Below are positions 1,370 to 58,765 of a DNA stretch of 64,000 nucleotides, piece after piece. The DNA is from Actinopolyspora halophila DSM 43834 (GTDB lineage Bacteria; Actinomycetota; Actinomycetes; Mycobacteriales; Pseudonocardiaceae). The translations under genes were made by a program, and so were the position numbers. The DNA is taken from NCBI RefSeq assembly GCF_000371785.1, contig NZ_AQUI01000002.1:652590-716589 (forward strand), written 5' to 3'. The notes below the pieces were generated by a model that did not search any database, was not told the origin of the DNA, and was given only the letters and a program-made list of their open reading frames with translations. Numbering within the stretch: the stretch's first letter is position 1; each line of letters starts with the position of its first letter.

Positions 1370-1600
1370 GCTGCTCGGTTTGCTCAGCGGGTTACTTGGC
1401 GGAACCTCTCGCGGGCTCTCGCTCCGGGTAGGCCCGACATCGGGTAGCCACCTACACAACGTCTCCGGCCGTCCTCGCCGGGCACTCGACTGAGAACCCG
1501 CGGCGGTGTCGACGGGTCAGGGTCAGAGCGTTTGCGTTGGTGTGGATCTCTTGGTCGGGAGTTCCTGCCTGGTGTTTCGGCGTTGCGTTCCACAGGGGAA
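1370..1600 (+). repeat. Palindromic repeat family, copy 1
   Basis: The element starts with a head (GCTCGGTTTGCTC), then a long imperfect inverted repeat (about 1400-1500): arm GGAACCTCTCGCGGG, inner stem GCCCGAC, loop with GTAGCCACCTAC, then the right arm ending CTGAGAACCCGC. A tail follows, ending near TTTCGGCGTTGCG. Here the two arms are of different types and pair poorly; the right arm equals that of copy 5. It lies between convergent genes. Confidence 0.85.
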
Positions 1601-1734
1601 CTCTGCGCGCTTCCGGCGAAAGGCCTCGGTCAACGCGAGCGCTTCAGCCTGAGCAGAACGAGGAGATCCGGTTCGTGAGTCGGATGCATCGCAAGGCCGG
1701 ACCGCTCGCAGCGTAGGTCGTTACTCACCAGCGG

Positions 1735-1800
1735 CCCAACGCTCCCGAGGCGCCGACTCACGTGCCGGCTGAGCGACCACCCAAGCAACCGGCCCCGTGG
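1735..1800 (-). repeat. Fragment related to the palindromic repeat family
   Basis: Read on the minus strand it has GGTTGCTTGGGTGG followed by CACGTGAGTCGGCGCCT. The second string recurs as the left arm of copy 9 near 58404. It looks like a head plus one arm without the rest of the element. It lies directly downstream of the CDC48-like gene. Confidence 0.5.
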
Positions 1801-1821
1801 GCCGAAGCCGATGCGGTCCGT

Positions 1822-4092
1822 TCAGCGTCCCCGCTCGTACGCGTCGAACGCCGCCAGCTGCTCCGCCGACAGCGAGGGGCGCACCCGTGAGCGCGCGGCC
1901 TCGACGTGCGTGGTCGAGACCTCGGTCGCGTCCATGCTCTCCCGCAGCGCGGAAAGAGCCGCCTCCCTGACCAGCGCTGAGCAGTCGGCGGCCGAATACC
2001 CCTCGAGGGACTCGGCCAGCGCCTCCGGGGCCACATCGGAAGCCAGCGGGGTGTTCCTGCTCGCGGAACGCAGGATCTCGGCCCGCGCCTTCGCGTCGGG
2101 CGGCGGAACACCGATGGAGCGTTCGAGCCTGCCCGGACGCAGCAGCGCCGGATCCACCAGCTCGGGTCGGTTGGTCGCCCCGATCACCACGACGTCGCGC
2201 AACGGTTCCACACCGTCCAGTTCGGTCAGCAGTGCGGCCACCACCCTGTCCGTGACCCCCGAGTTCGCGGACTGGCCCCGAACCGGGGCGAGCGCGTCGA
2301 TCTCGTCCAGGAACACCAGGGTCGGAGCGGCCTCCGCGGCCCTGGCGAACAACTCGCGCACCGCCCGTTCGGACTCGCCGACCATTTTGTCCAGCAGCTC
2401 CGCGCCCTTGACCGCCATCGCGTTGAGCTCGCCAGAGCCGGCCAGCGCCCGCACCAGGAAGGTCTTCCCGCAACCGGGAGGACCGTGCAGCAGCACCCCG
2501 CGAGAGGGGCGAACCCCCAACCTGGCGAAGGAGTCCGGGTAGCTCAGCGGCCAGAGCACGGTCTCGTTCAACGCCTGCTTGACCTCGGTCATGTCCCCGA
2601 CGTCGTCCAACGTGAGATCGCCGGTTCGCAGCGTGTCCGTTGTGGACATCGAGATGGGGCGCACGGAGGACAGCGCCCGCTCGAAGTCCTCGGCCCCCAC
2701 TCTGGGCTCCTCCGTTCCGTGCTCCGCGCGGTGCCGCAGCGCGGCCTGCACCGCCGCCTCCCCGCACAACGCCTCCAGATCGGCGGCGACGAAACCGGGG
2801 GTGCGTTCGGCGAGTCCACCCACGTCCACTTCGCGGTGCAACGGGGTCTGCCCGAGCAGCACCCGGAGCAGCTCGGTGCGGGTCGACACGTCGGGAGGAC
2901 CGACGGTCAGCTCCCGGTCGGCGAGTCCCGGCTCCCGAGCCCCCGGAGCCACTTCCTGCGGGGATGCGCTGGTGAGCACGAGCGCCAATCCGCGCTCCTT
3001 CGTCGCGGAGCGCAGCGCGTCCAGTGCCACCGTGGAAAGCGGCGGTGGGTCGGTGGCGGGAAAGAGCTCCTCCACATCCGTGACCAGCAGCACGCAACCG
3101 CCGTTCCGGCCCGCCGCCGCACGCGCCCGCCGTACCGCGTCGTGAACCCGCTCAGCCGCGGTCGCGGCCTCCAGAGCGGCGACGCTCGGTCCGCTCAACT
3201 CCACGAGATCGGCGTCCACGGCCGCGGCCACCGAGCGCACCATCGTCGCCTTGCCCACACCGGAAGGGCCGCTGAGCAGCACGCCCAGCCGTGACGTGGT
3301 GCCGAGGTGCTCCAGCAGCTCGGGCTGACGGAAGGAGAGCCGCAGCCACTCGTCGAGCCGGGCTGCCGTCTGCCTCCCGGCAACCAGATCGGACAGCGGC
3401 AGGACGCGCTGTCCGCCCGCATCGTCCGGGGCAGCGGCGGGTTCCTCCGCGGAGCGAGCGGGCGCTCGCCGCTCCGAAGTGTTCGGGGCGGGCGAAGCCG
3501 CCTCCGGATTCGCCCGCGCCCCCGTGGTGCGCTGCCAGTCGACCAGCGTCCCGGGATGGACCGCCACGGCCCCGGCCGGATCCGTCTCCGTGATGGTGAC
3601 CAGCTCGTTGGTCCAGGTGCTTCCGAACGAGGCGGAGAGCCTGCCGCGGACCGCGCCTGCCGCTCCGGACGTTCCGCCGACGAGGTCCTGGGGCAGCAGC
3701 GAAACCGCGTCCCCGGCCAGCAGCACCTTGCCCGTGAGCGCGAGGCGCAGCGTTTCCGGGGATATCGAAGCGGTGGCCATCCGCGAGCCGGAGACGGTGA
3801 TCGAACGGGCCGTGTGCACCTGCTCGGGGGCGACGAGGAGTGCGCTGCCCTCGGTGGCACCCGCGTTGCGCAAGGTGATGTCGTCGACGAACACCGCGCC
3901 CGTGGACTCGCCGATCCTGGTGCTCGCGGCCAGCGCCACGGTGTCGGTGGTTCCGGTGATCCGAACCGCGTCGAGACTGCTCAGCCCGAGAGCGTCCAGC
4001 ACCTCGGGGTGCAGCCGCAGCACCCCGCGGCGGTTGTCCGCGGCCGAGCTGGTCAGCCTGGCGGTGAGGCTGATCGACGAAGTCACGTTCAC
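1822..4092 (-). CDS. CDC48/p97-like double AAA+ ATPase
   Basis: A 756-residue cytosolic ATPase. The N-terminal ~190 residues resemble a CDC48 N-domain (double-psi barrel-like repeats around 20-130). The first AAA module has Walker A GPSGVGKAT at 275-283 and a degenerate Walker B (LLVTDVEEL, ~335-343) with no typical DE pair. The second has Walker A GPPGCGKT (537-544), Walker B LVFLDEIDA (592-600) and the GATNRPELVDPALLRPGR segment (638-655) with arginine fingers, so D2 is the likely motor. Members unfold or remodel protein complexes; the substrate is unknown. Rv0435c is the mycobacterial counterpart, also next to pssA. The start is GTG, with only a weak ribosome site. Confidence 0.9.
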   Translation of the reverse strand: MNVTSSISLTARLTSSAADNRRGVLRLHPEVLDALGLSSLDAVRITGTTDTVALAASTRIGESTGAVFVDDITLRNAGATEGSALLVAPEQVHTARSITVSGSRMATASISPETLRLALTGKVLLAGDAVSLLPQDLVGGTSGAAGAVRGRLSASFGSTWTNELVTITETDPAGAVAVHPGTLVDWQRTTGARANPEAASPAPNTSERRAPARSAEEPAAAPDDAGGQRVLPLSDLVAGRQTAARLDEWLRLSFRQPELLEHLGTTSRLGVLLSGPSGVGKATMVRSVAAAVDADLVELSGPSVAALEAATAAERVHDAVRRARAAAGRNGGCVLLVTDVEELFPATDPPPLSTVALDALRSATKERGLALVLTSASPQEVAPGAREPGLADRELTVGPPDVSTRTELLRVLLGQTPLHREVDVGGLAERTPGFVAADLEALCGEAAVQAALRHRAEHGTEEPRVGAEDFERALSSVRPISMSTTDTLRTGDLTLDDVGDMTEVKQALNETVLWPLSYPDSFARLGVRPSRGVLLHGPPGCGKTFLVRALAGSGELNAMAVKGAELLDKMVGESERAVRELFARAAEAAPTLVFLDEIDALAPVRGQSANSGVTDRVVAALLTELDGVEPLRDVVVIGATNRPELVDPALLRPGRLERSIGVPPPDAKARAEILRSASRNTPLASDVAPEALAESLEGYSAADCSALVREAALSALRESMDATEVSTTHVEAARSRVRPSLSAEQLAAFDAYERGR

Positions 4093-4186
4093 AGTTCGAG
4101 CTTAGGGATTCCTCGTGGTGCCTCGCTCGGGTGGTGTGTTTCGCGTTTCCGGCGCCGAAGAAGTACCGAGCTGGGAGCTGTCGAAC

Positions 4187-4200
4187 GTTTCGCGCGAAAC
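4187..4200. promoter_or_regulatory. 14-bp perfect palindrome, parS-like
   Basis: GTTTCGCGCGAAAC is a perfect palindrome in the gap between pssA and the CDC48-like gene. It differs from the actinobacterial parS core GTTTCACGTGAAAC only at the two symmetric central positions. It could be a ParB-family site variant or an operator; the sequence alone cannot decide. Confidence 0.35.
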
Positions 4201-4258
4201 TGTCGCGACGGCCGGTGACGGTACCGCACGTGCGGAAGGGCACCACCCGCCGCCGGAC

Positions 4259-5191
4259 TCACTTCGAGCGGTGGCGCAGCCCCAGCGCCCGGTAGCTGCG
4301 CCTGTTCTCCCGCTCGCGGTCGCCGTTGCGCCGGGGCAGCCTGACCCGTCGCGCGGCTCCGGCGACCCGGCGACGAAGCGGAGGACGCAGTCCGAGCCGA
4401 CGCTGACTGCGTCGGATCGCCCGGCGTTCCCGCGGCGGGACTTCCCAGGCCTCCGGATGGTTGGCCAGCCAGTGGTGGCGGTACACGGCGTACGGCACGT
4501 GCACGAGGTAGCCGGCCAGCGCGATCGTCAGGGAGATGAGCGGGTAGGTCACGATCCCCGCGGCGAGCAGCGCGACCAGCACCAGCAACGGTGCGACCAG
4601 CTTGGCCGGAACCTTGATCGTTTTCAACGACAGCGTCGGGACCCTGCTCACAGCGAGGGCGGCGATCGCGAGCATCCAGACCATCACGGTCGGCTGGGCC
4701 GACCACCAACCGTTGCCGCCCGCAGCCGCGGTGATCACGATCGGCAGCAACGCGAGCAGCCCGGCCGCCGGGGCAGGTATCCCGACGAAGAACTCCTTGC
4801 TGAACGACGGCTGCTCGCCGTCGTCGAGCAGCGTGTTGAAACGCGCGAGCCGCAGGATCATGCACACCGCGAAGATCAGGGCCACCACCCAGCCGACCCG
4901 GTTCCCGCCCAGCTGCCAGGCGTAGAGGGTGAGGGCGGGAGCCACACCGAAGGACATCGCATCGGAGAGCGAGTCGAGTTCGGCGCCCATCTTGCTGGTG
5001 GCGTCCAGCAGTCGCGCTATCCGCCCGTCCAGGCCGTCGAGCACGGCGGCCACCGCCGTGGCGGCGATGGCTCCCTCCAATTGCTGGTTGAGGGCGAACT
5101 GCACGGCGGAAAGCCCCGCGCACATCGCCAGCACGGTTACCGCGTTGGGCAGGAACCGGACCCCGGGTGGATTAGTACGTGTCTCGCTCAT
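4259..5191 (-). CDS. pssA: CDP-diacylglycerol--serine O-phosphatidyltransferase
   Basis: A 310-residue integral membrane enzyme that makes phosphatidylserine from CDP-diacylglycerol and serine. The CDP-alcohol phosphotransferase signature DGxxAR-x8-GxxxDxxxD is complete (D55, G56, A59, R60, G69, D73, D77). Several hydrophobic segments follow up to about residue 225. The last ~85 residues form a basic Arg-rich cytosolic tail, longer than in many homologues. Its start overlaps the psd stop by four bases (ATGA), so the product is passed directly to the decarboxylase encoded upstream in the same transcript. Order psd-pssA-CDC48 matches mycobacteria. Confidence 0.95.
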   Translation of the reverse strand: MSETRTNPPGVRFLPNAVTVLAMCAGLSAVQFALNQQLEGAIAATAVAAVLDGLDGRIARLLDATSKMGAELDSLSDAMSFGVAPALTLYAWQLGGNRVGWVVALIFAVCMILRLARFNTLLDDGEQPSFSKEFFVGIPAPAAGLLALLPIVITAAAGGNGWWSAQPTVMVWMLAIAALAVSRVPTLSLKTIKVPAKLVAPLLVLVALLAAGIVTYPLISLTIALAGYLVHVPYAVYRHHWLANHPEAWEVPPRERRAIRRSQRRLGLRPPLRRRVAGAARRVRLPRRNGDRERENRRSYRALGLRHRSK

Positions 5192-8639: not shown

Positions 8640-8840
8640 TGCGGTTCGGTCGGCCGGCAAGCGGCGCCAGCCGCTTTCCACCACCTGCGCAACCGGCACC
8701 GCCGGGGGTTCTCAGTCTCGGGTCTCGCAGGCAAGGCCCGACGTTGTGTAGGTGGCCACCCGATGTCGGGCCTGGCCGCGGCGAGACCCCGACTGAGGTT
8801 CCCCCACGGAACCACCCGAGCAAATCAAGCCACGCACTCT
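8640..8840 (-). repeat. Palindromic repeat family, copy 2
   Basis: Minus orientation, directly 3' of moeA. The stem is the CTCAGTCGGGGTCTCGC type, paired with GCGAGACCCGAGACTGAG; inner stem GCCCGAC/GTCGGGC; loop GGGTGGCCACCTACACAAC. The tail hairpin is the AAGCGGC/GCCGCTT form. The stem sequence differs from copies 3 and 8 on both arms, keeping the pairing. Confidence 0.9.
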
Positions 8841-8842
8841 AC

Positions 8843-10096
8843 TTAGTCGAGGAGCCATATGTCCACGGTGGTCCCCTCGGAGACCTCGGAACTCTCCTCC
8901 GGCAGCTGGATGAGGCAGTTGGCAGCGGCCATGCCGGAGAGGAGGTGGGAGCCTGCTCCCCCCTGCGCGATCACCGTGTCGGACTCCGGGTCGAAGAGCC
9001 CGCGCCGGTACTGGCGCTTGCCCGGTGAGGATCGCAGGGTCTCGGACAGCACTACTCTCCTTCGTGGACGATCCACTGCGCTGTGCCCGCCCGCACGGCG
9101 CAGCGCGGGACGCACGAACACCTCGAAGGACACGATCGAGCTGACGGGGTTTCCCGGAAGCGTGACCACGGGGACACGCCGCCCTCCCGCGGTGTAGTGA
9201 CCCGATCCCTGCGGCATGCCCGGTTGTACGGCGACCTTCTCGAAGCGGACCTCGTCGCCCTCCAACGCGTCCTTGACGACCTCGTAGGCGCCCGCGCTCA
9301 CCCCGCCGGAAGTGAGGATCAGGTCGGTCCCGTCCAGATACGGCTCCAACGCGGAGTGGAAGGCCGCGACGTCGTCGGGCACGAAGTGCAACAACTCGGC
9401 CGTGCCGCCGCACTGGCGCACCGCCGCCGCGAGCATGGTTCCGTTGGACTCGTAGATCTCGCCTCCGCGCAGCGGATTCCCCGGGCGCACCAGTTCCGAG
9501 CCCGTCGAGAGCACGAGCACCCTGGGAGGGCGGTGGACCGGGAGTTCGGCGCTTCCCACGGCCGAGGCCATGCCCAGCTGGGCGGCTCCGAGCGTGCTTC
9601 CGCCGTCGAGGACGGTCTGCCCCGCGGTCACGTCCTCGCCGCTGCCGCGGACGTTGGCACCGGCGGGAACGGTGGCCTGGATCGTCACCCGCTCCGTGCC
9701 GCCGTCGGTGCGTTCCACCGGGACCGTCGCGTCGGCGCCGGAGGGCAGCTGTGCGCCCGTCATTATCCGATGTGCCGCCCCCGGGGCGAGTTCGTCGACG
9801 TGCACCCGGCCTGCGGGTATGTCGGCGGTCACGGGAAGAGTCACGGGTCTCTCCGGGCCCGCCTCCGCGAGGTCGGCCGAGCGGACGGCGTAACCGTCCA
9901 TGGCCGAGTTGTCGAAGGGCGGCAGGGAGATCGGCGCCGTCAGGTGCTCGGCCAGCGCCAGTCCCAGGCATTCGTCCAGCGGCAGGTTCAGCGTCGGAGT
10001 CGGGACGAGCAGTTCCGATACGCGCCTGCGGTACTCGTCCACCGACAGCAGTGCCGAGGGATCGGTAGTGTGAGCCACGCCCCGATCATCGGACAT
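8843..10096 (-). CDS. moeA: Molybdopterin molybdenumtransferase MoeA
   Basis: About 417 residues. MoeA inserts molybdate into adenylylated molybdopterin, the last step of molybdenum cofactor synthesis in the cytosol. Family marks: the N-terminal SVDEYRRRV segment, LPPFDNSAMDGYAV (about 54-67), the RIMTGAQLP motif with P-rich flanks, and the MPT-binding LILTSGGVSAGAYE motif in the middle domain. I place the start at ATG 10096; longer in-frame starts run into a repeat, and an internal GTG (VAHTTD) with GGGG upstream is an alternative. Rv0438c (moeA2) lies at the equivalent position. The cofactor would serve the CO-dehydrogenase-type enzyme at 27-31 kb. Confidence 0.93.
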   Translation of the reverse strand: MSDDRGVAHTTDPSALLSVDEYRRRVSELLVPTPTLNLPLDECLGLALAEHLTAPISLPPFDNSAMDGYAVRSADLAEAGPERPVTLPVTADIPAGRVHVDELAPGAAHRIMTGAQLPSGADATVPVERTDGGTERVTIQATVPAGANVRGSGEDVTAGQTVLDGGSTLGAAQLGMASAVGSAELPVHRPPRVLVLSTGSELVRPGNPLRGGEIYESNGTMLAAAVRQCGGTAELLHFVPDDVAAFHSALEPYLDGTDLILTSGGVSAGAYEVVKDALEGDEVRFEKVAVQPGMPQGSGHYTAGGRRVPVVTLPGNPVSSIVSFEVFVRPALRRAGGHSAVDRPRRRVVLSETLRSSPGKRQYRRGLFDPESDTVIAQGGAGSHLLSGMAAANCLIQLPEESSEVSEGTTVDIWLLD

Positions 10097-10114: not shown

Positions 10115-10375
10115 GTTAGGGTCGGCGGCTCTTTTTGCTCGGCGGTGCGGGTGGCGGAACCTCTCGCGGGCTCTCGCTGAAGGCGAGGCCCGACATCGAG
10201 TAGCCACCTACGCCACGTCGGACCTTGCCTGCGAGAACACCACGAGAGAACCCGCGGCGGTGCCGGTGACTCAGGCTCAAAGCACCTGAGTCGGAGCGGA
10301 ACCTTTCGCCCGAGGTTCTTGGCAGGAGTTCGGCAGTGCCGGTGGTTGGCTGGGGAAAGCGGATCCGCCGCTGGT
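10115..10375 (+). repeat. Palindromic repeat family, copy 3
   Basis: Stem CTCTCGCGGGCTCTCGC pairs with GCGAGAACACCACGAGAG; loop CGAGTAGCCACCTACGCCAC. The second stem is CTCAGG/CCTGAG around CTCAAAGCA, where copies 5 and 6 have GCAGG-type arms: a paired change. The tail is of the AAAGCGG/CCGCT form. It lies in the divergent gap between moeA and the AIM24-like gene, so this copy is not a 3' element of a same-strand gene. Confidence 0.9.
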
Positions 10376-11644: not shown

Positions 11645-11765
11645 CTCGCACCGCCGCCGGTTCTCTCGTGGTGCTCTCGTGAGGACGCTCCCGATGTCGT
11701 GTAGAACCGCTACCCGATGCCGGGGGCCCGCCCACGAGACCGCGGAAGGCTCCGCTGAGCGGAAC
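11645..11765 (-). repeat. Palindromic repeat family, copy 4 (degenerate)
   Basis: Minus orientation. The loop GGGTAGCGGTTCTAC and right arm CACGAGAGCACCACGAGAG are recognisable, but the left arm is diverged (CTTCCGCGGTCTCGTG), keeping only CTCGTG/CACGAG pairing. It sits between the cold-shock gene and the kinase gene, opposite to both. Confidence 0.75.
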
Positions 11766-13192: not shown

Positions 13193-15063
<1,871 letters not shown>

Positions 15064-25719: not shown

Positions 25720-26847
25720 GTGCACAATGCGGATATGAACGAGGCGGATCACACGCTCGAAGGACTCGTCGGCTTCGCCGATGCGCTGCGCCACTCGGGG
25801 CTGAACTGCGATCCGGGGCGGGTCAGGGCCTTTCTGGACGCGACCGCCCACGTCGACCTTGCCGAGTGGACGCGGCTGTACTGGGCGGGAAGGTTGACCC
25901 TGTGCTCCGAGCCGGATGATCTGTCGCTGTTCGACGCCGCCTTCGCCGCCTGGTTCGGCGGACTTCCGGAGTCCGGTGGCGTGCCGGCCCGGCATCGTGC
26001 CGTTCGCCCGCGTGCGGCCCCGCTCGGTGGTGAGCCGCACGGGGAGTCCGAGGCCTCGGAAACCGAGGAATTGGCCGTTGCCGGTGATGTGGAGACACTG
26101 CGCAGGAGGGACCTCGCCGAACTGGGCGAGGCCGAGCGGGCGCACCTGCGCAGGATGCTGTCCCAATTGGACCTCCGTCCGCCGCGGCGTTCCTCGCTGC
26201 GGCGACGCCCGGCCCGACGGGGAACGTTGGATCCGGACGGGACCATGCGTGCCATGCTCCGGTCCGGTGGGGAACCGATGCGGCTCGCTCGGCGGGCGCG
26301 GGCGGGCAGGCCGCGCAGGGTGGTGCTGCTCGTCGACGTGTCCGGCTCGATGAGCGCCTATGCCGACGCCCTGCTGCGCTTCGCCCACTTGGTGGTGCGG
26401 GCGGCCCCGGCGAGTACCGAGGCCTTCACCCTGGGGACGCGGTTGACCAGGGTCACTCGCCAATTGCGGCAGCGCGACCCCGAAGTGGCGCTGGCCGCGG
26501 CCGGTCGCGCCGTGCCGGACTTCTCCGGAGGGACCCGGTTGGGGGAGACCCTGCGTGCTTTCCTGGACCGCTGGGGTCAGCGCGGGGCAGCCAGGTCGGC
26601 CGTGGTGGTGCTGTTCTCGGACGGTTGGGAACGCGGGGACACGGCCGAGCTCACCGAGGCCGTGCGCAGGCTGCGCAGGCTGGCGTACGCCGTGCTGTGG
26701 GCCAACCCGCACGCGGGCCACTCGGGGTACTCGCCCGTGCAGTCCGGGATAGTCGCGGCACTGCCCCATGTGGACGCGCTGGTCGCCGGGCACAGTCTGG
26801 AGGCTCTGCGGACGCTCTGGGAGGAAGTGCACCGCCAGTCCCGGTGA
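25720..26847 (+). CDS. coxE: VWA domain protein, CoxE-like
   Basis: About 375 residues. The N-terminal half is a charged helical region (VGFADALRHSGLNCDPGRVRAFL); the C-terminal half is a von Willebrand A domain with the MIDAS motif DVSGSMS (about 207-213), and SDGWERGD completing the metal site. CoxE-type VWA proteins partner MoxR ATPases to mature the active site of CO-dehydrogenase-type enzymes, which are encoded directly downstream. GTG 25720 and ATG 25735 are both possible starts. A palindromic repeat separates it from coxS. Confidence 0.85.
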   Translation: MHNADMNEADHTLEGLVGFADALRHSGLNCDPGRVRAFLDATAHVDLAEWTRLYWAGRLTLCSEPDDLSLFDAAFAAWFGGLPESGGVPARHRAVRPRAAPLGGEPHGESEASETEELAVAGDVETLRRRDLAELGEAERAHLRRMLSQLDLRPPRRSSLRRRPARRGTLDPDGTMRAMLRSGGEPMRLARRARAGRPRRVVLLVDVSGSMSAYADALLRFAHLVVRAAPASTEAFTLGTRLTRVTRQLRQRDPEVALAAAGRAVPDFSGGTRLGETLRAFLDRWGQRGAARSAVVVLFSDGWERGDTAELTEAVRRLRRLAYAVLWANPHAGHSGYSPVQSGIVAALPHVDALVAGHSLEALRTLWEEVHRQSR

Positions 26848-26854
26848 CTGGGGT

Positions 26855-27130
26855 TCACCGGTTCTTTTTGCTTGGCGGGTCACTTGGCGGAACCTCGGAT
26901 CGGCGCCCGGCTGCGGGTGCCCGACATCGGGTAGCGGCCTACACAACGTCTCCGGCCGTCCTCGCCGGGCACTCGACTGAGAACCCGCGGTCGGTCGGGC
27001 TGCGCAGGCTCAGAGCACTTGCGTCGGAGTGGACCTCTCGGTCGGGAGTTCCGGTCTGCGGTGCGGGTTGCTTGGGGGCGCGCTCCGGCGCTGCCGCGCC
27101 GAAGGGGAAACCGAGCCAACCGGTGACTCG
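26855..27130 (+). repeat. Palindromic repeat family, copy 5
   Basis: The stem is a third type: GCCCGGC (left) with GCCGGGC (right) flanked by CTC/GAG; inner stem TGCCCGAC; loop GGGTAGCGGCCTACACAAC. The tail ends in a perfect hairpin (GGCGC-TGCC-GCGCC) then AAACCGAGCC, the inverse of the head's GGTTTGCTTGG. The right arm is identical to that of copy 1. Confidence 0.9.
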
Positions 27131-27217
27131 ACGGGTGAAGCACCGCGCGTTCGCGGCGGAGTTTCACCGGATCGTGGTCGACAGTCCGCTGTGTCGCTGC
27201 TCGGACACGACACGTGC

Positions 27218-27241
27218 CGTTCGGGATCATGATCCCGAACG
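27218..27241. promoter_or_regulatory. 24-bp perfect palindrome upstream of coxSLM
   Basis: CGTTCGGGATCA is followed immediately by its exact reverse complement, 122 bases before the coxS start. The length and symmetry suit a dimeric repressor or activator, but no regulator gene adjoins it. It is not part of the repeat family. Confidence 0.65.
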
Positions 27242-27362
27242 ATCGTGGGCTTGCTTGCACCGGCGAGGAGTAGCAGGCTCTTGTGTTGTGACTCCCGTCA
27301 CTCGGGCGGGTTGTTCCGATGTACGTCCGCGCACCGCGGGCCAGACCCGTTGAGGAGCCCCA

Positions 27363-27920
27363 ATGCCGCGCATAACCGTCGATGTCGACGGAACCACCTA
27401 CACCGACGAGGTGCAGCCCAGAACCCTGCTGGTGCAGTACCTGCGCGAACAGCTCGGCAAAGTCGGCACCGTCGTCGGCTGCGACACCAGTAACTGCGGG
27501 GCCTGCACGGTCCACATGGACGGGCAGAGCGTGAAGTCCTGCTCGGTGCTGGCCGTCCAGGCGGACGGCCACGAGGTGACCACCGTCGAAGCCCTCTCCC
27601 AGGAAGGACGGCTGCATCCGCTGCAGCGGGCTTTCCACGACAACCACGCGTTGCAGTGCGGATTCTGCACCCCGGGAATGATCATGCAGGCCCTGGACCT
27701 GCTCGCGGAGAACCCCGAGCCGGACGACGAGCAGATCCGGGAAGGCCTGGAAGGCAACCTCTGCCGCTGCACGGGTTACCAGAACATAGTCCGCGCCGTG
27801 CGGGACGCCTCCGAGCAGATGCGGCCCGGAGCGGGACCGGCGATGGAGCGCTCCGGGGAGACACCTGCTCCGCGTGCTTCCGCGGAGCGGGCCGACACAC
27901 GTGTGACGGGAGGACAGTGA
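27363..27920 (+). CDS. coxS: Molybdenum hydroxylase small subunit, [2Fe-2S] protein
   Basis: A 185-residue iron-sulfur subunit of the xanthine oxidase/CO dehydrogenase family. The plant-type cluster motif is [12 protein letters not shown] (about 40-51, next Cys near 60); the second cluster motif is CGFCTPGM (about 100-107) with CRCTGY (about 136-141). It carries electrons from the molybdenum site to the FAD subunit. The last ~35 residues are a low-complexity tail beyond the usual ~155-160-residue length. Its stop is read through by the coxL ATG (GTGATG), indicating translational coupling. The order S-L-M differs from the classical M-S-L. Confidence 0.95.
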
Positions 27921-30376
27921 TGACCGCCACGCCAGTGAGCCCGTCCGAACCGGAACTCGGTCGCGCGCGCAAGCGCAAGGAGGACGCCCGGCTGGTCACC
28001 GGAAGGACGCGCTGGACCGACAACATGGCCCCGCCCGGCACGGTGCACCTGGCCGTGCTCCGCAGTCCGGTGGCCCACGCCGGGATCAGCTCCATCGACA
28101 CCTCGGAAGCGCGGAGGATGTCCGGGGTCCACGCGGTGGTGACCGGGGCCGACATCGCGCAACGGCAGGGCAGCCTGCCGTGCGCCTGGCCCGTCACCGA
28201 GGACATGAAAGCCCCCGACGCACCCGCCATGGCGGTCGAGTCGGTCAACTTCGCAGGCGAGGCCGTGGCCATGGTCGCGGCGCGCAGCGCGGCCGAGGCG
28301 CGCGACGCCCTGGACGCGATCGACGTCGACTACGAGGACCTCGACGTCGTGCTCGACATCGAGTCGGCCGCGCGGGACGACTCCCCGCTGGTTCACGAGG
28401 AGTTGGGAACCAACCGCAACGCGACGTGGACCTTCGACTCGGTCGAGGCAGGGACCGGAGGCGACGTGGAGCGGACGCTGCGGGACGCCGAGGTGCGGGT
28501 GGACCGGACCTTCAGGCAGCAGCGGTTGATCCCCGCCTTCATGGAACCCCGCTCGGTGCTCGTCGACCCGACGGGAGAGCAGTACACGGTCTGGTCGGCC
28601 ACCCAGGTGCCGCACATCCTGCGCACCATGATCGCCATGACGCTGGGGACCCCCGAGCACAAGGTCCGGGTGATCGCTCCGGACGTCGGAGGGGGATTCG
28701 GCGGCAAGTTGCAGGTCACCCCCGAGGAAGTGCTCACCTTCCTGATGGCCGAACAGCTCGGGCGCCCGGTCAAGTGGACCGAGTCCAGGTCCGAGACGAT
28801 GATCTCCGGTCACCACGGCAGGGACCAGGTGCAGCGGCTCTCCCTGGCCGCGCGTTCGGACGGAACCGTCACCGGGCTCAAGGTCGACCTGCTCGCCGAC
28901 ATGGGGGCCTACCTGCGGCTGGTCTCGCCCGGGGTGCCGATTCTCGGCGCGTTGATGTTCAACTCGATCTACAAGTTCGACGCGTACCGGTTCACCTGCA
29001 CGAACGTGTTCACCAACAAGACACCGACCGATGCCTACCGGGGAGCGGGACGTCCCGAGGCGACCTTCGCGATCGAACGGATGATGGACGAGCTGGCCGC
29101 CGAGCTCGACATGGATCCGATGGAGGTCCGCCGCAAGAACTGGATCGGCCACGAGGAGTTCCCCTTCGACACCATCGCCGGGCTGACCTACGACTCCGGG
29201 AACTACGAGGCGGCCACGGACCGGGCGCTGGAGATGTTCGGTTACCAGCAGCTGCGTGACGAGCAGGTGCAGCGCAGACAGCGCGGTGACACCGTTCAGC
29301 TGGGAATCGGGATCTCCACCTTCACCGAGATGTGCGGGCTGGCTCCCTCCAGAGTGCTCGGTTCGCTGTCCTACGGGGCGGGTGGTTGGGAGCACTCCCA
29401 GGTTCGGGTGCTGCCCACCGGCAAGGTGGAGGTGGTCACCGGCACCTCGCCGCACGGGCAGAGCCACGTGACCGCCTGGAGTCAGATCGTCTCCGACCGG
29501 CTGGGCGTGCCCTTCGAGGACATCGAGGTGCTGCACGGTGACACGCAGTCCTCGCCGCGCGGTCTGGACACCTACGGGTCCCGCTCGCTCGCGGTCGGGG
29601 GAATCGCGGCTGTTCAGGCCTCCGACAAGGTGGTCGACAAGGCCGGGAAGATCGCGGCGCACATGCTGGAGTGCGCCGAGCAGGACCTGGAGTTCACCGA
29701 GGGGCGGTTCGCCGTTCGCGGCACGGACAAGGGCGTGGGCATCACGGACGTGGCGCTGGCCGCGTTCACCGCCCACGACCTGCCCGAGGGCGTGGAGCCG
29801 AACCTCGACGCCGAGGCCAGTTACGACCCGGAGAACTTCTCCTTCCCGCACGGCACGCACCTGTGCGCCGTGGAGGTCGACACCGAGACCGGAGGGGTGC
29901 GCATCAGGTCCTATGTGTGCGTGGACGACGTCGGCAGCGTCGTCAACCCGCTCATCGTGGAAGGCCAGGTGCACGGTGGGCTGGCCCAGGGGATCGCCCA
30001 GGCGCTGTACGAGGAGGCGGTTTACGACGACGACGGCACGCTGACGACGGCTACCTTCGCGGACTACCTGGTTCCCTCCGCGATGGACCTGCCCGAGTTC
30101 CGAACGGACCGCACCGAGACCGAGGCGACCTCCAACCCGCTCGGGGTCAAGGGAGTGGGCGAGGCGGGCACGATCGCCTCCACCCCCGCCGTGGTCAACG
30201 CGGTGGTCGACGCGATCAGGCACTACGGGGTCACCGATGTGCGGATGCCGTGCTCGCCGCAGCGGGTGTGGCGGGCCCTGTCCGAGGCCCGGTCGAGTTC
30301 CGCCACGGCGGAATCCGGCGGTGGGCTCGGACCCAGCGACAGCGACGGTGGTCTCACGACCGGAGGTGACAGGTGA
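27920..30376 (+). CDS. coxL: Molybdenum hydroxylase large subunit, form II CO-dehydrogenase type
   Basis: An 818-residue catalytic subunit binding the molybdopterin cytosine dinucleotide cofactor. The N-terminal KRKEDARLVTGRTRWTDN and the GGGFGGK motif near 258 are typical. The active-site loop reads AYRGAGR (about 371-377), the form II signature; proven CO oxidisers of form I have AYxCSFR with the copper-binding cysteine. The catalytic glutamate lies in GVGEAGT near the C-terminus. CO oxidation by form II enzymes is disputed, so the substrate may be another aldehyde or heterocycle. ATG overlaps the coxS stop, and coxM overlaps its end by four bases. Confidence 0.92.
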   Translation: MTATPVSPSEPELGRARKRKEDARLVTGRTRWTDNMAPPGTVHLAVLRSPVAHAGISSIDTSEARRMSGVHAVVTGADIAQRQGSLPCAWPVTEDMKAPDAPAMAVESVNFAGEAVAMVAARSAAEARDALDAIDVDYEDLDVVLDIESAARDDSPLVHEELGTNRNATWTFDSVEAGTGGDVERTLRDAEVRVDRTFRQQRLIPAFMEPRSVLVDPTGEQYTVWSATQVPHILRTMIAMTLGTPEHKVRVIAPDVGGGFGGKLQVTPEEVLTFLMAEQLGRPVKWTESRSETMISGHHGRDQVQRLSLAARSDGTVTGLKVDLLADMGAYLRLVSPGVPILGALMFNSIYKFDAYRFTCTNVFTNKTPTDAYRGAGRPEATFAIERMMDELAAELDMDPMEVRRKNWIGHEEFPFDTIAGLTYDSGNYEAATDRALEMFGYQQLRDEQVQRRQRGDTVQLGIGISTFTEMCGLAPSRVLGSLSYGAGGWEHSQVRVLPTGKVEVVTGTSPHGQSHVTAWSQIVSDRLGVPFEDIEVLHGDTQSSPRGLDTYGSRSLAVGGIAAVQASDKVVDKAGKIAAHMLECAEQDLEFTEGRFAVRGTDKGVGITDVALAAFTAHDLPEGVEPNLDAEASYDPENFSFPHGTHLCAVEVDTETGGVRIRSYVCVDDVGSVVNPLIVEGQVHGGLAQGIAQALYEEAVYDDDGTLTTATFADYLVPSAMDLPEFRTDRTETEATSNPLGVKGVGEAGTIASTPAVVNAVVDAIRHYGVTDVRMPCSPQRVWRALSEARSSSATAESGGGLGPSDSDGGLTTGGDR

Positions 30377-31224
30377 TTCCCGCGGAGTTCGACTACGTCG
30401 CCCCCTCCACGGTGGAGGAGGCGGTCCGGGCGCTGGGCAGCGCGGGGGAGGACGCCAAAGTCCTCGCCGGAGGTCAGAGCCTGCTACCGGTGCTGCGCAT
30501 GAGGCTCGCCGACCCCTCGCTGGTGGTGGACCTCGGCAAGGTCGCCGAGATGCGCGGGATTCGCGAGGAAGGCGACGAACTGGTGATCGGAGCCATGACC
30601 AGTCACCACGATGTGCTGCGTGACGACCTGGTGTCCGAACACGCCGAGCTGATCGCGCTGACGACACGGACCGTCGCCGACCCGCAGGTGCGGCACCGCG
30701 GGACGTTCGGAGGGTCCATAACCCACGCCGATCCCGCGGGCGACCTGTTGGCGCCCGTGCTGGCGATGGACGCGGAGATGGTCGTGGCCGGCCCTTCCGG
30801 GAGGAGGAGCATCGCGGCACGCGAGTTCTTCGTCGATTACTTCACCACGGCGATCGAGCCGGACGAGGTTCTCGTCGAGGTCCGGTTGCCCAAGTACACG
30901 GGGTGGAGCGCGCACTACGAGAAGTTCAACCGGGTGGCACAGGCATGGTCGGTGGTGGGAGTCGCGACCACGGTGCGCGTGGAGGGCGGAAAGATCGCTC
31001 GCGCGCGGGTCGGGCTGACCAACATGGGAGCGACCCCGATACGTGCGGAGGGCGTGGAGCAGGCGCTGCTCGGCGCGGCCCCCACCGAGGAGGCGATACG
31101 GCAGGCGGCCGCGCGTGCCACCGAGGGAACGAGCGCGGGCAGCGACGCCAACGCCGATGTGGACTATCGGGAGCATCTGGCCGAAGTGTTGACCAAGCGA
31201 GCTCTGACCACCGCTAGTTCTTAG
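30373..31224 (+). CDS. coxM: Molybdenum hydroxylase FAD subunit
   Basis: A 283-residue FAD-binding subunit passing electrons from the iron-sulfur subunit to the acceptor. The FAD motifs of the family are both present: AGGQSLLPVLRMRLADPS (about 32-49) and TFGGSITHADPAGD (about 112-125). The C-terminal CO-dehydrogenase FAD domain covers 175-280. GTG start inside a GTGA overlap with coxL. Expected to form an (SML)2 complex at the inner membrane face. A palindromic repeat follows. Confidence 0.94.
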   Translation: MIPAEFDYVAPSTVEEAVRALGSAGEDAKVLAGGQSLLPVLRMRLADPSLVVDLGKVAEMRGIREEGDELVIGAMTSHHDVLRDDLVSEHAELIALTTRTVADPQVRHRGTFGGSITHADPAGDLLAPVLAMDAEMVVAGPSGRRSIAAREFFVDYFTTAIEPDEVLVEVRLPKYTGWSAHYEKFNRVAQAWSVVGVATTVRVEGGKIARARVGLTNMGATPIRAEGVEQALLGAAPTEEAIRQAAARATEGTSAGSDANADVDYREHLAEVLTKRALTTASS

Positions 31225-31234: not shown

Positions 31235-31510
31235 CGGGGCGGTTTGCGTGGCGGGTCGCTTGGCGGAACCTCTCGCGGGCTCTCGCTCCGGGGAGGCCCG
31301 ACATCGGGTAGCCACCTACACAACGTCGAACCTTCCTCGCGAGAGCACCACGAGAGAACCCGCGGCGGTGCCGACTGCGCAGGCTCAGAGCACCTGCGTC
31401 GAGCGGAAGCCTTGCACTGGGAGTTCCTGAGTGGGAGTGGCAGCTCGGTTTTCCGGTGATACCGACTGCGTGCTCGGCAAGGGTTTTGGCGCCTGCGGGG
31501 CCGAAGGGAT
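31235..31510 (+). repeat. Palindromic repeat family, copy 6
   Basis: Stem CTCTCGCGGGCTCTCGC pairs with GCGAGAGCACCACGAGAG; inner GCCCGAC faces GTCGAAC (one break); loop GGGTAGCCACCTACACAAC. A second stem GCGCAGG/CCTGCG surrounds CTCAGAGCA. The tail is diverged (TTTTGGCGCCTGCGGGGCCGAA). It lies between coxM and the CoxG-like gene. Confidence 0.9.
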
Positions 31511-35639: not shown

Positions 35640-35800
35640 CATTCGGCGCGGCAGCGCCGAAACGATCACCTGAGCGGCTCGCACCGCCGCGGGGTCTCTC
35701 GGGTGTGCTCCCGCGAGGACGGTCGGAGACGTTGTGCAGGTCGCTCCCCGACGTCGGGGCACCCGCAGCGATAGTCCGCGAGAGGTGCCGCTCAGCAACC
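35640..35800 (-). repeat. Palindromic repeat family, copy 7
   Basis: Minus orientation. Stem CTCTCGCGGACTATCGC faces GCGGGAGCACACCCGAGAG, only partly paired. The inner stem has changed to CCCCGAC next to GTCGGGG, and the loop (GAGCGACCTGCACAAC) is diverged. The tail hairpin is perfect: TTCGGCGC-TGCC-GCGCCGAA (35643-35662). It precedes the SPFH pair in the same direction. Confidence 0.8.
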
Positions 35801-54814: not shown

Positions 54815-54870
54815 TTTCCACGCGGCGCGGCAGCGCCGGAACACGTCCCCGAGCCACCGAGCGAACCGCC
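54815..54870 (-). repeat. Short tail-plus-head relic of the palindromic repeat family
   Basis: On the minus strand a head-like GGTTCGCTCGGTGGCTCGGG is followed by the tail hairpin CCGGCGC-TGCC-GCGCCG, without the central long palindrome. It lies between the Rv0863-like and malic enzyme genes. Confidence 0.55.
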
Positions 54871-55011
54871 CCGCCGCCCCTTGCGATCGGATCGCGTGCC
54901 GGAAATCACCCCCGGTGGAACGGTGGGGTGGCAGTGCTTCCGCGGTGATGAGTTCTAGTCTCGGTCGGGCCACAGGGTTTCGCGAGAGCTCATCACTGAC
55001 AGAGGTGCTAC

Positions 55012-56502
55012 ATGCCGGTTCCAGGTCCGGGTTATTCGATCACCGTTCGCGTCGAGGCTCCTCCCTCGGCCACAGCGGCCGGTGATCTGACCACGGCGGT
55101 CGGCCGTACGGGCGCGGTGATAACGGCGTTCGACGTCGTCGAATCGCACGCCGACCGCATAGTGGTCGACATAACCTGCAATTCGTTGTCGGCGGACCAC
55201 GCCGACGACATCACCGAGGCGCTCGAAGCGCTGCCGGGTACACGGGTCCGCAAGGTCTCCGATCGGACCTTCCTGGTCCACCTCGGCGGCAAGATCGAGG
55301 TCAATTCCAAGGTAGCCCTGGCCAACCGGGACGACCTCTCCCGCGCCTACACCCCGGGGGTGGCCCGGGTGTGCACGGCGATCGCCAAGAATCCGGAGGA
55401 CGCGCGGCGGCTGACCGTCAAACGCAGCTCGGTCGCCGTTCTCACGGACGGCTCCGCCGTCCTCGGGCTCGGCAACATCGGCCCCGAGGCCGCCCTGCCC
55501 GTGATGGAGGGCAAGGCGGCACTGTTCAAGAAGTTCGCCGGCGTCAACGCCTGGCCGGTGTGTCTGGACACCCAGGACACCGAGGAGATCATCCGGGCCG
55601 CCGAGCTGATCGCTCCGGCCTACGGCGGGATCAATCTCGAGGACATCGCCGCGCCGCGTTGCTTCGAGATCGAAGCGCGGCTCCGGGAGCGGTTGAACAT
55701 CCCGGTCTTCCACGACGATCAGCACGGCACCGCGATCGTGGTGCTCGGTGCGCTGCGCAACGCCTTGCGTGTGGTCGACAAGGACCTGTCCGACTGCCGC
55801 GTGGTCGTGTGCGGTGTGGGGGCCGCCGGATCGGCGATCATCCGGCTGCTGCGGCAGAAGAGCCCCGCCGACATAGTCGCGGTGGACGTCGACGGGATCG
55901 TGCACGATGCTCGGGGGGACACCGACGAGCACCTGCGTGCCATAGCCGCCGGGACCAACGCGGAGGGGCGTACCGGCACGCTCGCCGACGCCGTGCGAGG
56001 GGCCGACGTGTTCATCGGGGTCTCCGCGCCGAATCTGCTCAGCGCGGAGGACGTGGCCACGATGAACGACGACGCGATCGTGTTCGCGCTGGCCAACCCC
56101 GATCCCGAGGTGGACCCGCTGGAGGCCCGGAAGCACGCCACGGTCGTGGCCACCGGCCGCAGCGACTACCCGAACCAGATCAACAACGTGCTGGCCTTCC
56201 CCGGTTTCTTCCGGGGTCTGCTGGACGCGCACGCGCACGAGATCACCGACGAGATGATGTTGGCCGCGGCCAACGCGATCGCCGATGTCGTGGACAGCAA
56301 CGATCGGGTCAACGCCTCGTTCATCGTTCCGAGCGTGTTCGACAGCACCGTCTCGCCCACCGTGGCGGAGGCGGTCCGCCGGGTGGCCGTGTCCGGGGAC
56401 GAAGCCGGCGGTGGTGGAAGCCAGGGGGGAGCGGCCGGTTCCTCCGTGGCGGCAGCGGGAGTTCCCGGTTTCGCCGATATGGAGGAGGACACCGGGCTCT
56501 GA
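55012..56502 (+). CDS. NAD-dependent malic enzyme with N-terminal ACT-like domain
   Basis: A 496-residue cytosolic enzyme converting malate to pyruvate and CO2. Residues 1-90 form an ACT-like regulatory domain ([24 protein letters not shown]), then the malic domain with [12 protein letters not shown] (catalytic Tyr) and the metal site [12 protein letters not shown], and a Rossmann NAD domain with GVGAAGSAI. The tail (about 460-496) is Gly/Ala-rich. ACT-malic enzymes are single-domain forms related to Rv2332-type but shorter. A repeat copy follows before moaC. GACAGAGGTG is the likely ribosome site. Confidence 0.93.
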
Positions 56503-56524
56503 TCCCTCCGGTGGGGTAGAGAGT

Positions 56525-56780
56525 GCACGGCTCGGTTTGCTTGACGGTGCGGGTGGCGGAACCTCTCGCGGGCTCTCGCTGCGGCCAGGCCCGACATCGG
56601 GTAGCGGCCTACACAACGTCGGGCCTTGCCTGCGAGAGCACCACGGGAGAACCCGCGGCGGTGCCGGTTGGTTGGGTGTTCGGCACTGGCGCGCCGAAGA
56701 GCCCCCGGCGGTGCCGACTGCGTAGGTGGGTGACAAGCGGCTCCGCCGCTTGTCCGGCAACCGGACTGACCGAACGGGTG
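56525..56780 (+). repeat. Palindromic repeat family, copy 8
   Basis: The cleanest copy: GGAACCTCTCGCGGGCTCTCGC faces GCGAGAGCACCACGGGAGAA, inner GGCCCGAC/GTCGGGCC, loop GGGTAGCGGCCTACACAAC. The tail carries both a TTCGGCACTGGCGCGCCGAA-like stem and an AAGCGGC-TCC-GCCGCTT hairpin. It fills the gap between the malic enzyme gene and moaC. Confidence 0.93.
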
Positions 56781-56841
56781 CTCGCTCGAGCCGTGCACTC
56801 TCACAGGCAGAACTGTGAGCACCACCGAGTAGGGTCGGCGC

Positions 56842-57333
56842 ATGGCGTCAGAGCAAGAGCTCACCCACGTGGACGAATCCGGTGCCGCGCGGATGGTCGA
56901 TGTGGGCGACAAGGAAAGCACCGCGCGTCGCGCCGTCGCGTCCGGCACTCTGCGCACCACTCCCGAAGTGATCAGCCGGCTGCGTGGGGACGACCTCCCG
57001 AAAGGCGACGCGCTCGCGACCGCGCGGATCGCGGGGATCATGGCCACCAAACGCACTTCCGACCTGATCCCGCTGTGCCACCCGATCGCCATAGCGGGTG
57101 TGGACGTGGAGCTGGCCACCACCGAGGACCGAGTGCACATCACCGCGACCGTGCGCACCACCGACCGCACCGGGGTGGAGATGGAGGCGTTGACGGCCGT
57201 GACCGGTGCCGGGCTGGCGCTGCACGACATGGTCAAGGCCGTGGACCCGGCCGCCGTGCTCGACGGAGTGCGCGTGGAACGAAAAGAAGGCGGCAAGACC
57301 GGGCTGTGGGTCCGGGACGACGCGCGGGGATGA
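56842..57333 (+). CDS. moaC: Cyclic pyranopterin monophosphate synthase accessory protein MoaC
   Basis: A 163-residue cytosolic enzyme of molybdenum cofactor synthesis, converting the MoaA product to cyclic pyranopterin monophosphate. Family motifs: LTHVDESGAARMVDVGDK at the start, DLIPLCHPI (about 75-83) and MEALTAVTGAGLALHDMVKAVD (about 114-135) with the active-site Lys. ATG start; normal length. The mog-moaE fusion follows 49 bases later. Confidence 0.96.
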   Translation: MASEQELTHVDESGAARMVDVGDKESTARRAVASGTLRTTPEVISRLRGDDLPKGDALATARIAGIMATKRTSDLIPLCHPIAIAGVDVELATTEDRVHITATVRTTDRTGVEMEALTAVTGAGLALHDMVKAVDPAAVLDGVRVERKEGGKTGLWVRDDARG

Positions 57334-57382
57334 TTGTGCGCGTCGACACGTCAACCGTGATCACGCTCAGGGAAGGGCACCC

Positions 57383-58360
57383 ATGACCGAACGAGACGCC
57401 CGGGTGGTCGCTGCTTCGAACCGTGCCGCGGAGGGAACCTACGAGGACCGCACCGGCCCGATCATCGTCGCCTGGCTGCGGGAGCGCGGATTCCGGGTCG
57501 CCGACGCCGAAGTGGTTCCGGACGGCGCTCCGGTGCGCGCCGCACTGGGACGCGCGGTCGAGGAGAAGGTCGATCTGGTGCTGACCACGGGCGGCACCGG
57601 CATCAGCCCCACGGACCGCACCCCCGAGATGACAGCGGAACTGCTGGACTTCCCGATTCCCGGACTGGCCGAAGCGCTGCGCACGGCCGGACTCCCCGAG
57701 GTTCCCACGGCGGTGCTCTCGCGCGGTCTCGCCGGTGTGGCGGGGGAAACGCTGGTGGTGAACCTGCCCGGTTCCCGCGGCGGAGTGCGGGACGGTCTCG
57801 GTGTGCTGGACGGAGTGCTCGAACACGCACTGGACCAGGTGCGCGGAGGAGACCACCGGCGTGCAGGGGACCCCACCTCCGAGACCGCCGCTTCCGCGGC
57901 CGACGGGGAAGCGACGAACACCGGGGACAGCGATACGGTAGTGGTCTCGCGGGCGGCGATGACGGAGGAGCACATCGACGTGCCCCTGCTGGAGCGCGGA
58001 GTGGAGCACAGCGCGGCAGGGGCGGTGGTCACCTTCGCGGGGGCCGTGCGCGACCACGACGGCGGCCGTGGGGTTCGCGAACTGGAGTACACGAGCCATC
58101 CCTCGGCCGCGGAAGTGATCCGCGAGGTGGCCGCGGACGTGGCGTCCCGCTCGGACGGAGTGCGCGCGCTGGCGGTGGAACACCGCACGGGAGTGCTGCG
58201 GATCGGCGACGTCGCTCTCGGCTGCGCCGTATCGGCCGAACACCGCAAACAGGGCTTCGACGCCTGCTCCGAGCTCGTCGACGAAGTGAAGCGGCGGCTT
58301 CCGGTGTGGAAGCGCCAGGTTTTCGAGGACGGGCAGGAAGAGTGGGTCAACTGCCCTTAG
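57383..58360 (+). CDS. Mog-MoaE fusion protein
   Basis: A 325-residue protein joining two cofactor enzymes. Residues 1-155 are a complete MogA/MoaB-type domain (VVAASNRAAEGTYEDRTGPI, LVLTTGGTGISPTDRTPE, NLPGSRGG) that adenylylates molybdopterin. A linker (about 156-195, Ala/Thr/Asp-rich) leads to MoaE (about 197-325), the large subunit of molybdopterin synthase, with EHRKQGFDACSELVDEVKRRLPVWKRQVFEDG. Mycobacteria carry mog and moaE2 as separate adjacent genes. ATG behind GGAAGGG. The partner MoaD lies on the opposite strand at 60827. Confidence 0.92.
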   Translation: MTERDARVVAASNRAAEGTYEDRTGPIIVAWLRERGFRVADAEVVPDGAPVRAALGRAVEEKVDLVLTTGGTGISPTDRTPEMTAELLDFPIPGLAEALRTAGLPEVPTAVLSRGLAGVAGETLVVNLPGSRGGVRDGLGVLDGVLEHALDQVRGGDHRRAGDPTSETAASAADGEATNTGDSDTVVVSRAAMTEEHIDVPLLERGVEHSAAGAVVTFAGAVRDHDGGRGVRELEYTSHPSAAEVIREVAADVASRSDGVRALAVEHRTGVLRIGDVALGCAVSAEHRKQGFDACSELVDEVKRRLPVWKRQVFEDGQEEWVNCP

Positions 58361-58399
58361 AACTCATAGTGGAGCTTTGCTGAGCTGGTCGGGTAGCCG

Positions 58400-58500
58400 T
58401 CACGTGAGTCGGCGCCTTGCCGGCGTTGGAGGGCACCTCGAGTAGCGGCCTACGCCACGTGCCCTCCCGCCTTGCAATGCATCCGACTCACGCACCGGAG
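58400..58500 (+). repeat. Palindromic repeat family, copy 9 (divergent arms)
   Basis: Outer arms CACGTGAGTCGG (58402 on) and CCGACTCACG are complementary; the inner stem is GGAGGGCAC/GTGCCCTCC; loop CGAGTAGCGGCCTACGCCAC. Arms differ completely from other copies while the loop is kept, a strong case of conserved structure. It is directly downstream of mog-moaE. Confidence 0.88.
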
Positions 58501-58564
58501 CTCCTCGTCCTGCCCGGGCTGAAGCGCCTGTGCTGCACGGTCCCTCCGTTGGGAGTCCTGGCGG

Positions 58565-58765
58565 GAGTGCGGCGGCTCGGTTTGCTTGGTGGGTCGCTTG
58601 GCGGAACCTCAGTCGGGGTCTCGCTGCTCCGATCCTCGACATCGAGTAGGCACCTACGCCACGTCGAGGCTGTCCTCGCGAGACCCGTGACTGAGAACCC
58701 GCGGCGGTGCCGGTGGGCAGCGTGGTCGTTTCGGCGCTGCCGCGCCGAAGAAAAACCGAGCGAAT
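58565..58765 (+). repeat. Palindromic repeat family, copy 10
   Basis: Head GGCTCGGTTTGCTTGG, arms CTCAGTCGGGGTCTCGC/GCGAGACCCGTGACTGAG, inner CCTCGAC/GTCGAGG, loop CGAGTAGGCACCTACGCCAC. The tail is the perfect hairpin TTTCGGCGC-TGCC-GCGCCGAA followed by AAAACCGAGCG, the inverse of the head, so both ends of the element are visible. It lies about 100 bases after copy 9. Confidence 0.92.

Follow-up and report, generated by a model that had tools for sequence, protein, structure and literature searches.

A 64,000-nucleotide stretch of the Actinopolyspora halophila DSM 43834 genome (contig NZ_AQUI01000002.1, positions 652,590 to 716,589; hereafter the window) carries copies of an intergenic palindromic repeat. 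We found that this repeat of the Pseudonocardiaceae is real and, as far as we searched, undescribed, and that its placement rule and its exchange behaviour are unusual. The copies form a family that varies while preserving its structure. They are anchored in sense orientation behind stop codons, turn over between species, are dispersed within genomes and can differ in their cores at orthologous slots. Taken together, the sequences suggest, with about an even chance in our judgement, a non-autonomous mobile hairpin cassette that is kept as a structure at mRNA 3' ends; we infer both its spread and its 3' role from sequence comparison.

Structure and covariation

Each copy is a hairpin of about 106 nucleotides (nt), and three window copies folded singly each gave one long hairpin. 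In type A copies a nearly invariant, unpaired AAC/AAC internal loop lies near the base (GCGG-AAC-CTC ... GAG-AAC-CCGC), while type B copies deviate at this outer loop. The apex reads CGAC-ATCRR-GTAG-N4-CTAC-RCMAC-GTCG, in which R and its partner alternate between G.A and A.G, and the apical stem varies in some genera (GTAG/CTAC, GTAT/ATAC, GAAT/ATTC). The conserved mismatches adjacent to the apex belong to the motif, as does the AAC/AAC loop. The consensus ends of the conserved core are GGCGGAACCTC and GAGAACCCGC.

The original prediction, made from the window alone, described stems that change on both sides, and made its claim depend on covariation beyond the shared ancestry of the arms. Both points are borne out, as double changes exceed those in controls with slid partners, which preserve relatedness. 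Alignment A9 was fitted to R1, a covariance model built from five window copies, and holds 32 matches (31 distinct) that were found and aligned with this structural model. Here, both sides changed in 24 of 39 pairs, against 6-9 when the partners were slid by 1-3 columns, and 154 cells were double-changed, against 17-27 in the slid controls. Because of A9's dependence on a structural model, we repeated the count on A11, a MAFFT alignment made without structure from 32 sequences, three of them type B and most of them still found by the model. This gave both-side change in 26 of 39 pairs against 12-22 after sliding, and 112 double-changed cells against 25-63. The separation is weaker than in A9, above all in the number of double-changed pairs, partly because the inner stems are misaligned in A11 (78% of the helix 4 cells are paired).

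Placement behind stop codons

Using a simple GC-based gene caller, we found that 90 of the 136 scorable copies in the A. halophila genome start 29-60 nt after a stop codon on the same strand, with the bulk at 33-49 nt (four of the 140 copies, whose two neighbours were not both covered by the loci, were left out). When copies were placed and oriented at random within the same gaps, the mean was 11.7 and the maximum 21 in 2000 simulations. For type B we located 41 left arms; the gene upstream is on the same strand for 34, and 29 of these 34 lie at 31-57 nt. Of 20 copies taken from ten further genomes, 17 sit at 33-59 nt; two are more distant (65 and 158 nt) and one follows a gene of the opposite strand. 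In genome G002 alone, 16 of 17 copies lie at 33-50 nt. In either replichore the copies are oriented like the gene (left, 34 plus and 12 minus; right, 11 plus and 33 minus), where the GC skew of the examined loci puts the origin near 0 and the terminus near 2.45 Mb. In gaps longer than 100 nt there were 56 sense copies per 102 convergent gaps against 49 per 268 tandem gaps, in loci chosen around copies.

The position is fixed relative to the stop codon within about 30 nt, and gene-oriented, in six genera including Actinopolyspora; bacterial interspersed palindromes are usually called loosely intergenic. This set distance, like the exchange of whole cores from slot to slot, was no part of the original prediction. 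A gene-specific association across genera was considered and set aside: five upstream proteins from other genera had a 61-87% match in the A. halophila loci and, in these few data, none of them is the gene preceding a sense copy there.

Distribution and copy number

The ten copies first noticed are a small part of the family, as many more occur in the same genome and in other Pseudonocardiaceae. The A. halophila genome (G000) holds at least 140 R1 matches at E<=0.01 (best 150 candidates scored), all on contig C2 and none on the 95-kb contig C1. The pattern GTAGN4CTACRCNRC matched 128 times and its reversed control not at all. Sequence-based hidden Markov models, which also catch type B and partial copies, marked 210 places in the examined loci of this genome. 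Five named Actinopolyspora genomes have at least 123-141 R1 matches each (E<=0.001; best 150 candidates scored per genome). The nearest named relative is A. biskrensis, with 92% identity in a protein adjoining copies.

Of the 390 Pseudonocardiaceae genomes searched, 71 match R1 (E<=1e-6; best ten candidates scored per genome), and these represent 15 of the 46 genera covered. Copies read from genera g57, g6, g14, g26 and g13 are the same element as that of Actinopolyspora, and the remaining nine genera are assigned by model score. When 394 genomes were drawn from across the class, the source genome of the window was the sole match to model R2 (E<=1e-6), and plasmids and phages gave no match to a 201-base query.

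Copy number varies widely. Among 30 genomes counted with R2 (E<=1e-4, best 131 candidates scored per genome) it ranges from 0 to at least 131. At least 130 copies were counted in A. halophila, 111 in G002, 131 in G003, 118 in G022, 121 in G382, 124 in G379, 122 in G404 and 131 in G402; lower counts came from G395 (67), G385 (57), G398 (44), G250 (43), G391 (5) and G006 (3), and none from G066 and G032. Six genomes of genus g26 span 5 to 124 copies. G006, with 4.2 Mb, belongs to the same genus as A. halophila, and its three copies stand beside 111 and 131 in two other relatives counted.

Turnover, dispersal and exchange of cores

Orthologous sites were compared with A. biskrensis along 400 kb of one contig, where both flanks are preserved for 26 A. 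halophila copies. A. biskrensis has no detectable copy at 12 of these sites, and 14 are filled. Two of the copy-less sites (569509 and 642496) retain a left remnant in the alignment. At 839838, one of the filled sites, the slot itself is empty in A. biskrensis and a type B copy occupies the neighbouring slot. Except for the site at 10153, most of the other copy-less sites differ in their entire 3' segment, so that gain, loss and replacement are not always distinguishable. Strand can differ as well: the copy trailing a short cold-shock-like gene has minus orientation in the window and in A. biskrensis. Its counterparts in loci L135 and L137 are plus-strand copies, and in L136 a plus-strand copy behind the corresponding short gene is a weak match of 38.5 bits.

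Identical cores are dispersed within some genomes. In G002 one 106-nt core occurs eight times without a letter changed, each time between different flanks, and in G395 one identical core is common to five copies; in A. halophila 138 of 140 cores are distinct. Among the 28 pairs formed by the eight G002 cores, the exact run of identity beyond the core measures 1-6 nt leftward (25 pairs) and 4-12 nt rightward (27 pairs), and the left flanks agree in only 10-29 of 30 letters. The ends of the unit are nearly fixed in most pairs compared. Random-tract gene conversion as the sole process is unlikely, since identity stops near the same places in most pairs.

Cores also differ where the surroundings are conserved. 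At two of ten slots orthologous between A. halophila and G002, 74 of 75 upstream letters are identical and the cores are of different subtype (87/112 and 87/114 identity), with the subtype differences running in opposite directions. Core identity at the remaining eight ranges from 103/106 down to 85/112. In loci chosen around copies, both slots are filled for 10 of the 13 G002 genes with an A. halophila counterpart. Orthologous genes with different cassettes, or with none, constitute a natural experiment.

We found no target-site duplication: the longest word shared by the left and right 20 nt measured 5.04 against 5.07 in shuffled flanks, with 133 of 200 shuffles at or above the observed value (113 of 140 copies placed, 27 left out). 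In 13 of the 113 the left flank reads GGCGGTGCGGGT, close to the right flank. With a loose pattern we located 46 right-flank motifs at places without a copy; by eye, about 17 of them look like flank modules. Such coreless modules, reading about TTYGCTYGCGGCGGTGCCGRYTGCKYAGGCTC by eye, occur at G000:C2 4437407 and as second modules roughly 250 nt behind stop codons. Coreless modules and copies together form mosaics, which we take to resemble the BIMEs of Escherichia coli.

Among 14 half or partial copies that we read, left halves are commoner than right ones and most of them end at the hairpin tip, for example at G000:C2 163932, 224055, 649254, 3795580 and 4360580. In these 14 stretches no half copy has its other half around a gene, as an autonomous parent would.

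Search for a mobiliser

Transposition by a hairpin-recognising enzyme had been offered as one explanation of the paired changes. This option has lost support, because Y1_Tnp has no match in G002, G008 and G022 (most copy-rich genomes of other genera were not searched), though it has seven in A. halophila itself. The reverse transcriptase domain RVT_1 (PF00078) was not matched in A. halophila, G001, G003, G006, G022, G250, G395, G391, G404, G402 and G379; it was matched in G002, G021, G382 and G385. For the DEDD transposase of IS110 (PF01548), 8 of 18 genomes had matches, and A. halophila, G002, G022, G250, G395, G391, G404 and G402 had none. Each of the three classes (Y1/RAYT, reverse transcriptase and IS110) is thus without a match in at least three genomes carrying tens to more than 100 copies, and we rejected all three as necessary mobilisers. 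A mobiliser may belong to another class, or may since have been lost.

Interpretation

In our proposal, a single long hairpin whose internal loops are conserved makes up a non-coding cassette, about 100-115 nt in length, and this cassette would fill slots just past stop codons. New copies would arise in 3'-flank modules that resemble one another, and the process could be enzymatic or a gene conversion in which GGCGGAACCTC and GAGAACCCGC, the conserved ends, provide short anchors for recombination. Once transcribed, the cassette would be retained as a hairpin in the 3' untranslated region that starts just beyond the terminating ribosome, whose footprint extends about 12-15 nt past the stop codon. 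This hairpin may act on the formation or decay of the mRNA 3' end, through termination, as an exonuclease block or as an endonuclease site. For the placement we favour selection at the mRNA level, because a DNA target does not read the stop codon. Moreover, the cassettes may serve across the family as interchangeable mRNA 3' ends, exchanged as a unit at stop-proximal slots, with flanks unchanged and without a duplication or the three mobiliser classes tested; we put this forward tentatively, as somewhat short of an even chance. If true, the 3'-end module of a gene could be replaced while its flanks persist. The set stop distance makes it directly testable whether such repeats persist as mRNA 3' ends.

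Several observations weigh against this proposal. Over all 39 pairs we counted 264 G-U and 100 A-C cells; in variable stem columns, with two columns that have G-U as the common state left out, G-U is only mildly above A-C (140 against 100), and a model-free alignment of the arms, conserved loops included, gives 178 G-T against 497 A-C cells. The mRNA-sense strand averages 10.7 kcal/mol less stable than its complement and is the lower in folding energy in 5 of 125 copies from A. halophila and 1 of 19 from other genomes. The strand counts were made after seven reverse-strand duplicates had been taken out of A10. On the opposite strand the AAC/AAC loop reads GUU/GUU. A protein that recognises the unpaired letters would account for these results. 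Strand stability points away from RNA, and the selected form may be RNA or a cruciform. As to placement, 31 of the 136 scorable copies are without a same-strand upstream gene (22 tandem antisense, 9 divergent). The A. halophila left flanks share a degenerate motif (113 copies; G at -8 in 98%, C at -15 in 91%, G at -16 in 87%), so the distance could derive from a target module and not from selection. Finally, two sets of identical G002 cores fit gene conversion better than fixed-ended transposition: L188 and L189 have 122 nt of right flank in common, and L188, L191 and L193 have 19-26 nt of left flank in common.

Some of these points would suit a purely selfish miniature inverted-repeat transposable element (MITE), whose hairpin serves transposition as DNA and whose stop-proximal sites reflect the least harm or a target module. 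We regard this as rather unlikely, with a substantial remaining chance. Tolerated antisense copies, the unsettled strand tests and the shared left-flank motif together with the coreless modules agree with it, as do the sites filled in one species only, the identical dispersed copies and the five upstream proteins from other genera that never mark a sense copy in A. halophila. However, intergenic space is far wider than the interval of 29-60 nt, so that a random distribution would put 11.7 copies where we observed 90, and neither a target-site duplication nor, in several copy-rich genomes, a Y1 (G002, G008, G022), reverse transcriptase or IS110 match was found.

Improbable, in our view, is a cis-regulatory or terminator RNA that is inherited with its gene and homogenised by gene conversion alone, without transposition. 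Such an RNA would explain the sense placement, the covariation and the excess of sense copies in convergent gaps (in loci chosen around copies), and orthologous slots are indeed often both filled (14/26 in A. biskrensis; 10/13 in G002, with the same choice of loci). It is hard to reconcile with the clean empty site at 10153, with sites filled in one species only, with 5 to 124 copies inside genus g26 and with the copy whose strand, behind the corresponding gene, differs between species. A DNA site of the chromosomal-architecture or gyrase type, acting as a cruciform, as has reportedly been proposed for the BIMEs of E. coli, seems very improbable. The near-perfect palindrome would fit, and the terminus-proximal 2.0 Mb of G000:C2 (1.75-3.75 Mb, 38% of the contig) hold five of the 140 copies, against 135 in the remainder; yet conserved mismatches interrupt the DNA palindrome, and orientation tracks the gene in both replichores.

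Copies in the window

All ten copies noted at first were found at their positions, three of them (8640, 11645 and 35640) on the minus strand, and their arm variants and loop versions match the earlier description. The statement that all are intergenic extends to the genome, where none of the 140 copies lies inside a gene predicted by our caller. The motif GTAG-N4-CTAC occurs seven times in the window against 0.04 expected. With R1 we identified an eleventh copy, on the minus strand at 1664-1769 (Table 1).

Table 1. Hairpin cores and a coreless flank module in the window, with neighbouring genes and the state of the orthologous A. biskrensis site.
Position	Strand	Feature	Genomic context	A. biskrensis
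1398..1505	+	type A core	39 nt past stop of LytR_C-domain gene 805-1359	also present
1664..1769	-	type B core	53 nt past stop of AAA/CDC48-like gene 1822-4092 (-)	also present
8700..8805	-	type A core	38 nt past stop of MoeA gene 8843-10042 (-)	orthologous site without copy
10153..10259	+	type A core	flanked by divergent MoeA and AIM24 genes	site cleanly empty
11652..11756	-	type A core	antisense behind short cold-shock-like gene (identified by eye, without family search)	
26886..26992	+	type A core	39 nt past stop of CoxE-like VWA gene 26278-26847	
31262..31367	+	type A core	38 nt past stop of CO-dehydrogenase FAD-domain gene 30373-31224	
35685..35792	-	type A core	predicted upstream gene 615 nt away	without the whole surrounding segment
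56555..56660	+	type A core	53 nt past stop of malic enzyme gene 55117-56502	not present
56698..56726	+	right-flank module (CCCCCGGCGGTGCCGACTGCG), coreless; repeat family D4	downstream of the 56555 copy	
58396..58502	+	type B core	36 nt past stop of MoaE-domain gene 57404-58360	
58600..58706	+	type A core	tandem second slot behind type B copy	not present

A second palindrome (GGCGCTGCCGCGCC and variants), resembling a terminator hairpin, stands shortly behind several copies (27081-27104, 35650-35665, 58732-58750). In other genera an AAGCGGC...GCCGCTT hairpin often replaces it. Among the neighbouring genes, the CDC48-like double AAA ATPase with a CDC48_N domain (1822-4092, minus strand) adjoins the LytR_C gene. 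A molybdenum hydroxylase locus is suggested by the CoxE-like VWA and CO-dehydrogenase FAD-domain genes (26278-31224) and by the MoeA and MoaE-domain genes in other parts of the window.

Comparison with known systems

The element has the marks of a MITE in being short and non-coding with terminal inverted repeats, as the arms of its core of about 106 nt pair and the AAC/AAC loop lies in the outer stem; the target-site duplication of that class was not found in the 113 copies placed. The attC site of integrons is an imperfect palindrome behind a stop codon, oriented with the gene and recombined as a folded bottom strand, with RYYYAAC and GTTRRRY boxes. Our repeat likewise is an imperfect palindrome past the stop codon in gene orientation. 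In contrast to attC, no RYYYAAC/GTTRRRY boxes are seen by eye at the core ends GGCGGAACCTC and GAGAACCCGC (no integrase search was made), and the neighbours are ordinary chromosomal genes and not a cassette array.

The original prediction did not recognise a described family, and our searches agree. Rfam gave no match on the copies, neither for the window at gathering level nor at permissive E-values for 2.5 kb of the window and seven loci, and we found no description in the open-licence literature of PubMed Central (PMC). The element is not described in the available part of a Saccharopolyspora transcriptome paper (PMC3610266). A survey of bacterial stem-loop sequences defined 92 families, including ERIC (PMC2267715); neither actinobacteria nor Streptomyces is mentioned in its main text, and Corynebacterium and Mycobacterium are the high-GC Gram-positives named in the part available.

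REPINs, which go with RAYT transposases, are described in the accessible part of PMC3116915 as dispersed, extragenic, hairpin-forming and present in many copies, and the element reported here is so as well. Unlike REPINs, it forms one long hairpin and not two inverted REPs, and G002, G008 and G022 have no match to Y1_Tnp, the domain of RAYT. QMITE2 of Coxiella burnetii lies mainly in 3' untranslated regions (PMC10969869); going by the available description, no stop-distance rule is given for it. The same source reports that ERIC insertion at gene 3' ends in Yersinia enterocolitica alters transcript levels, unmasking an RNase E site. Our element would work in the manner of ERIC and the other MITE-class repeats, with which it shares an imperfect palindrome of about 100-130 nt, an intergenic position and tens to hundreds of copies. 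Judged by the descriptions available to us, it is set apart from that class by its occurrence in another clade, by its near-constant distance from the stop codon and by the exchange of its cores without duplication.

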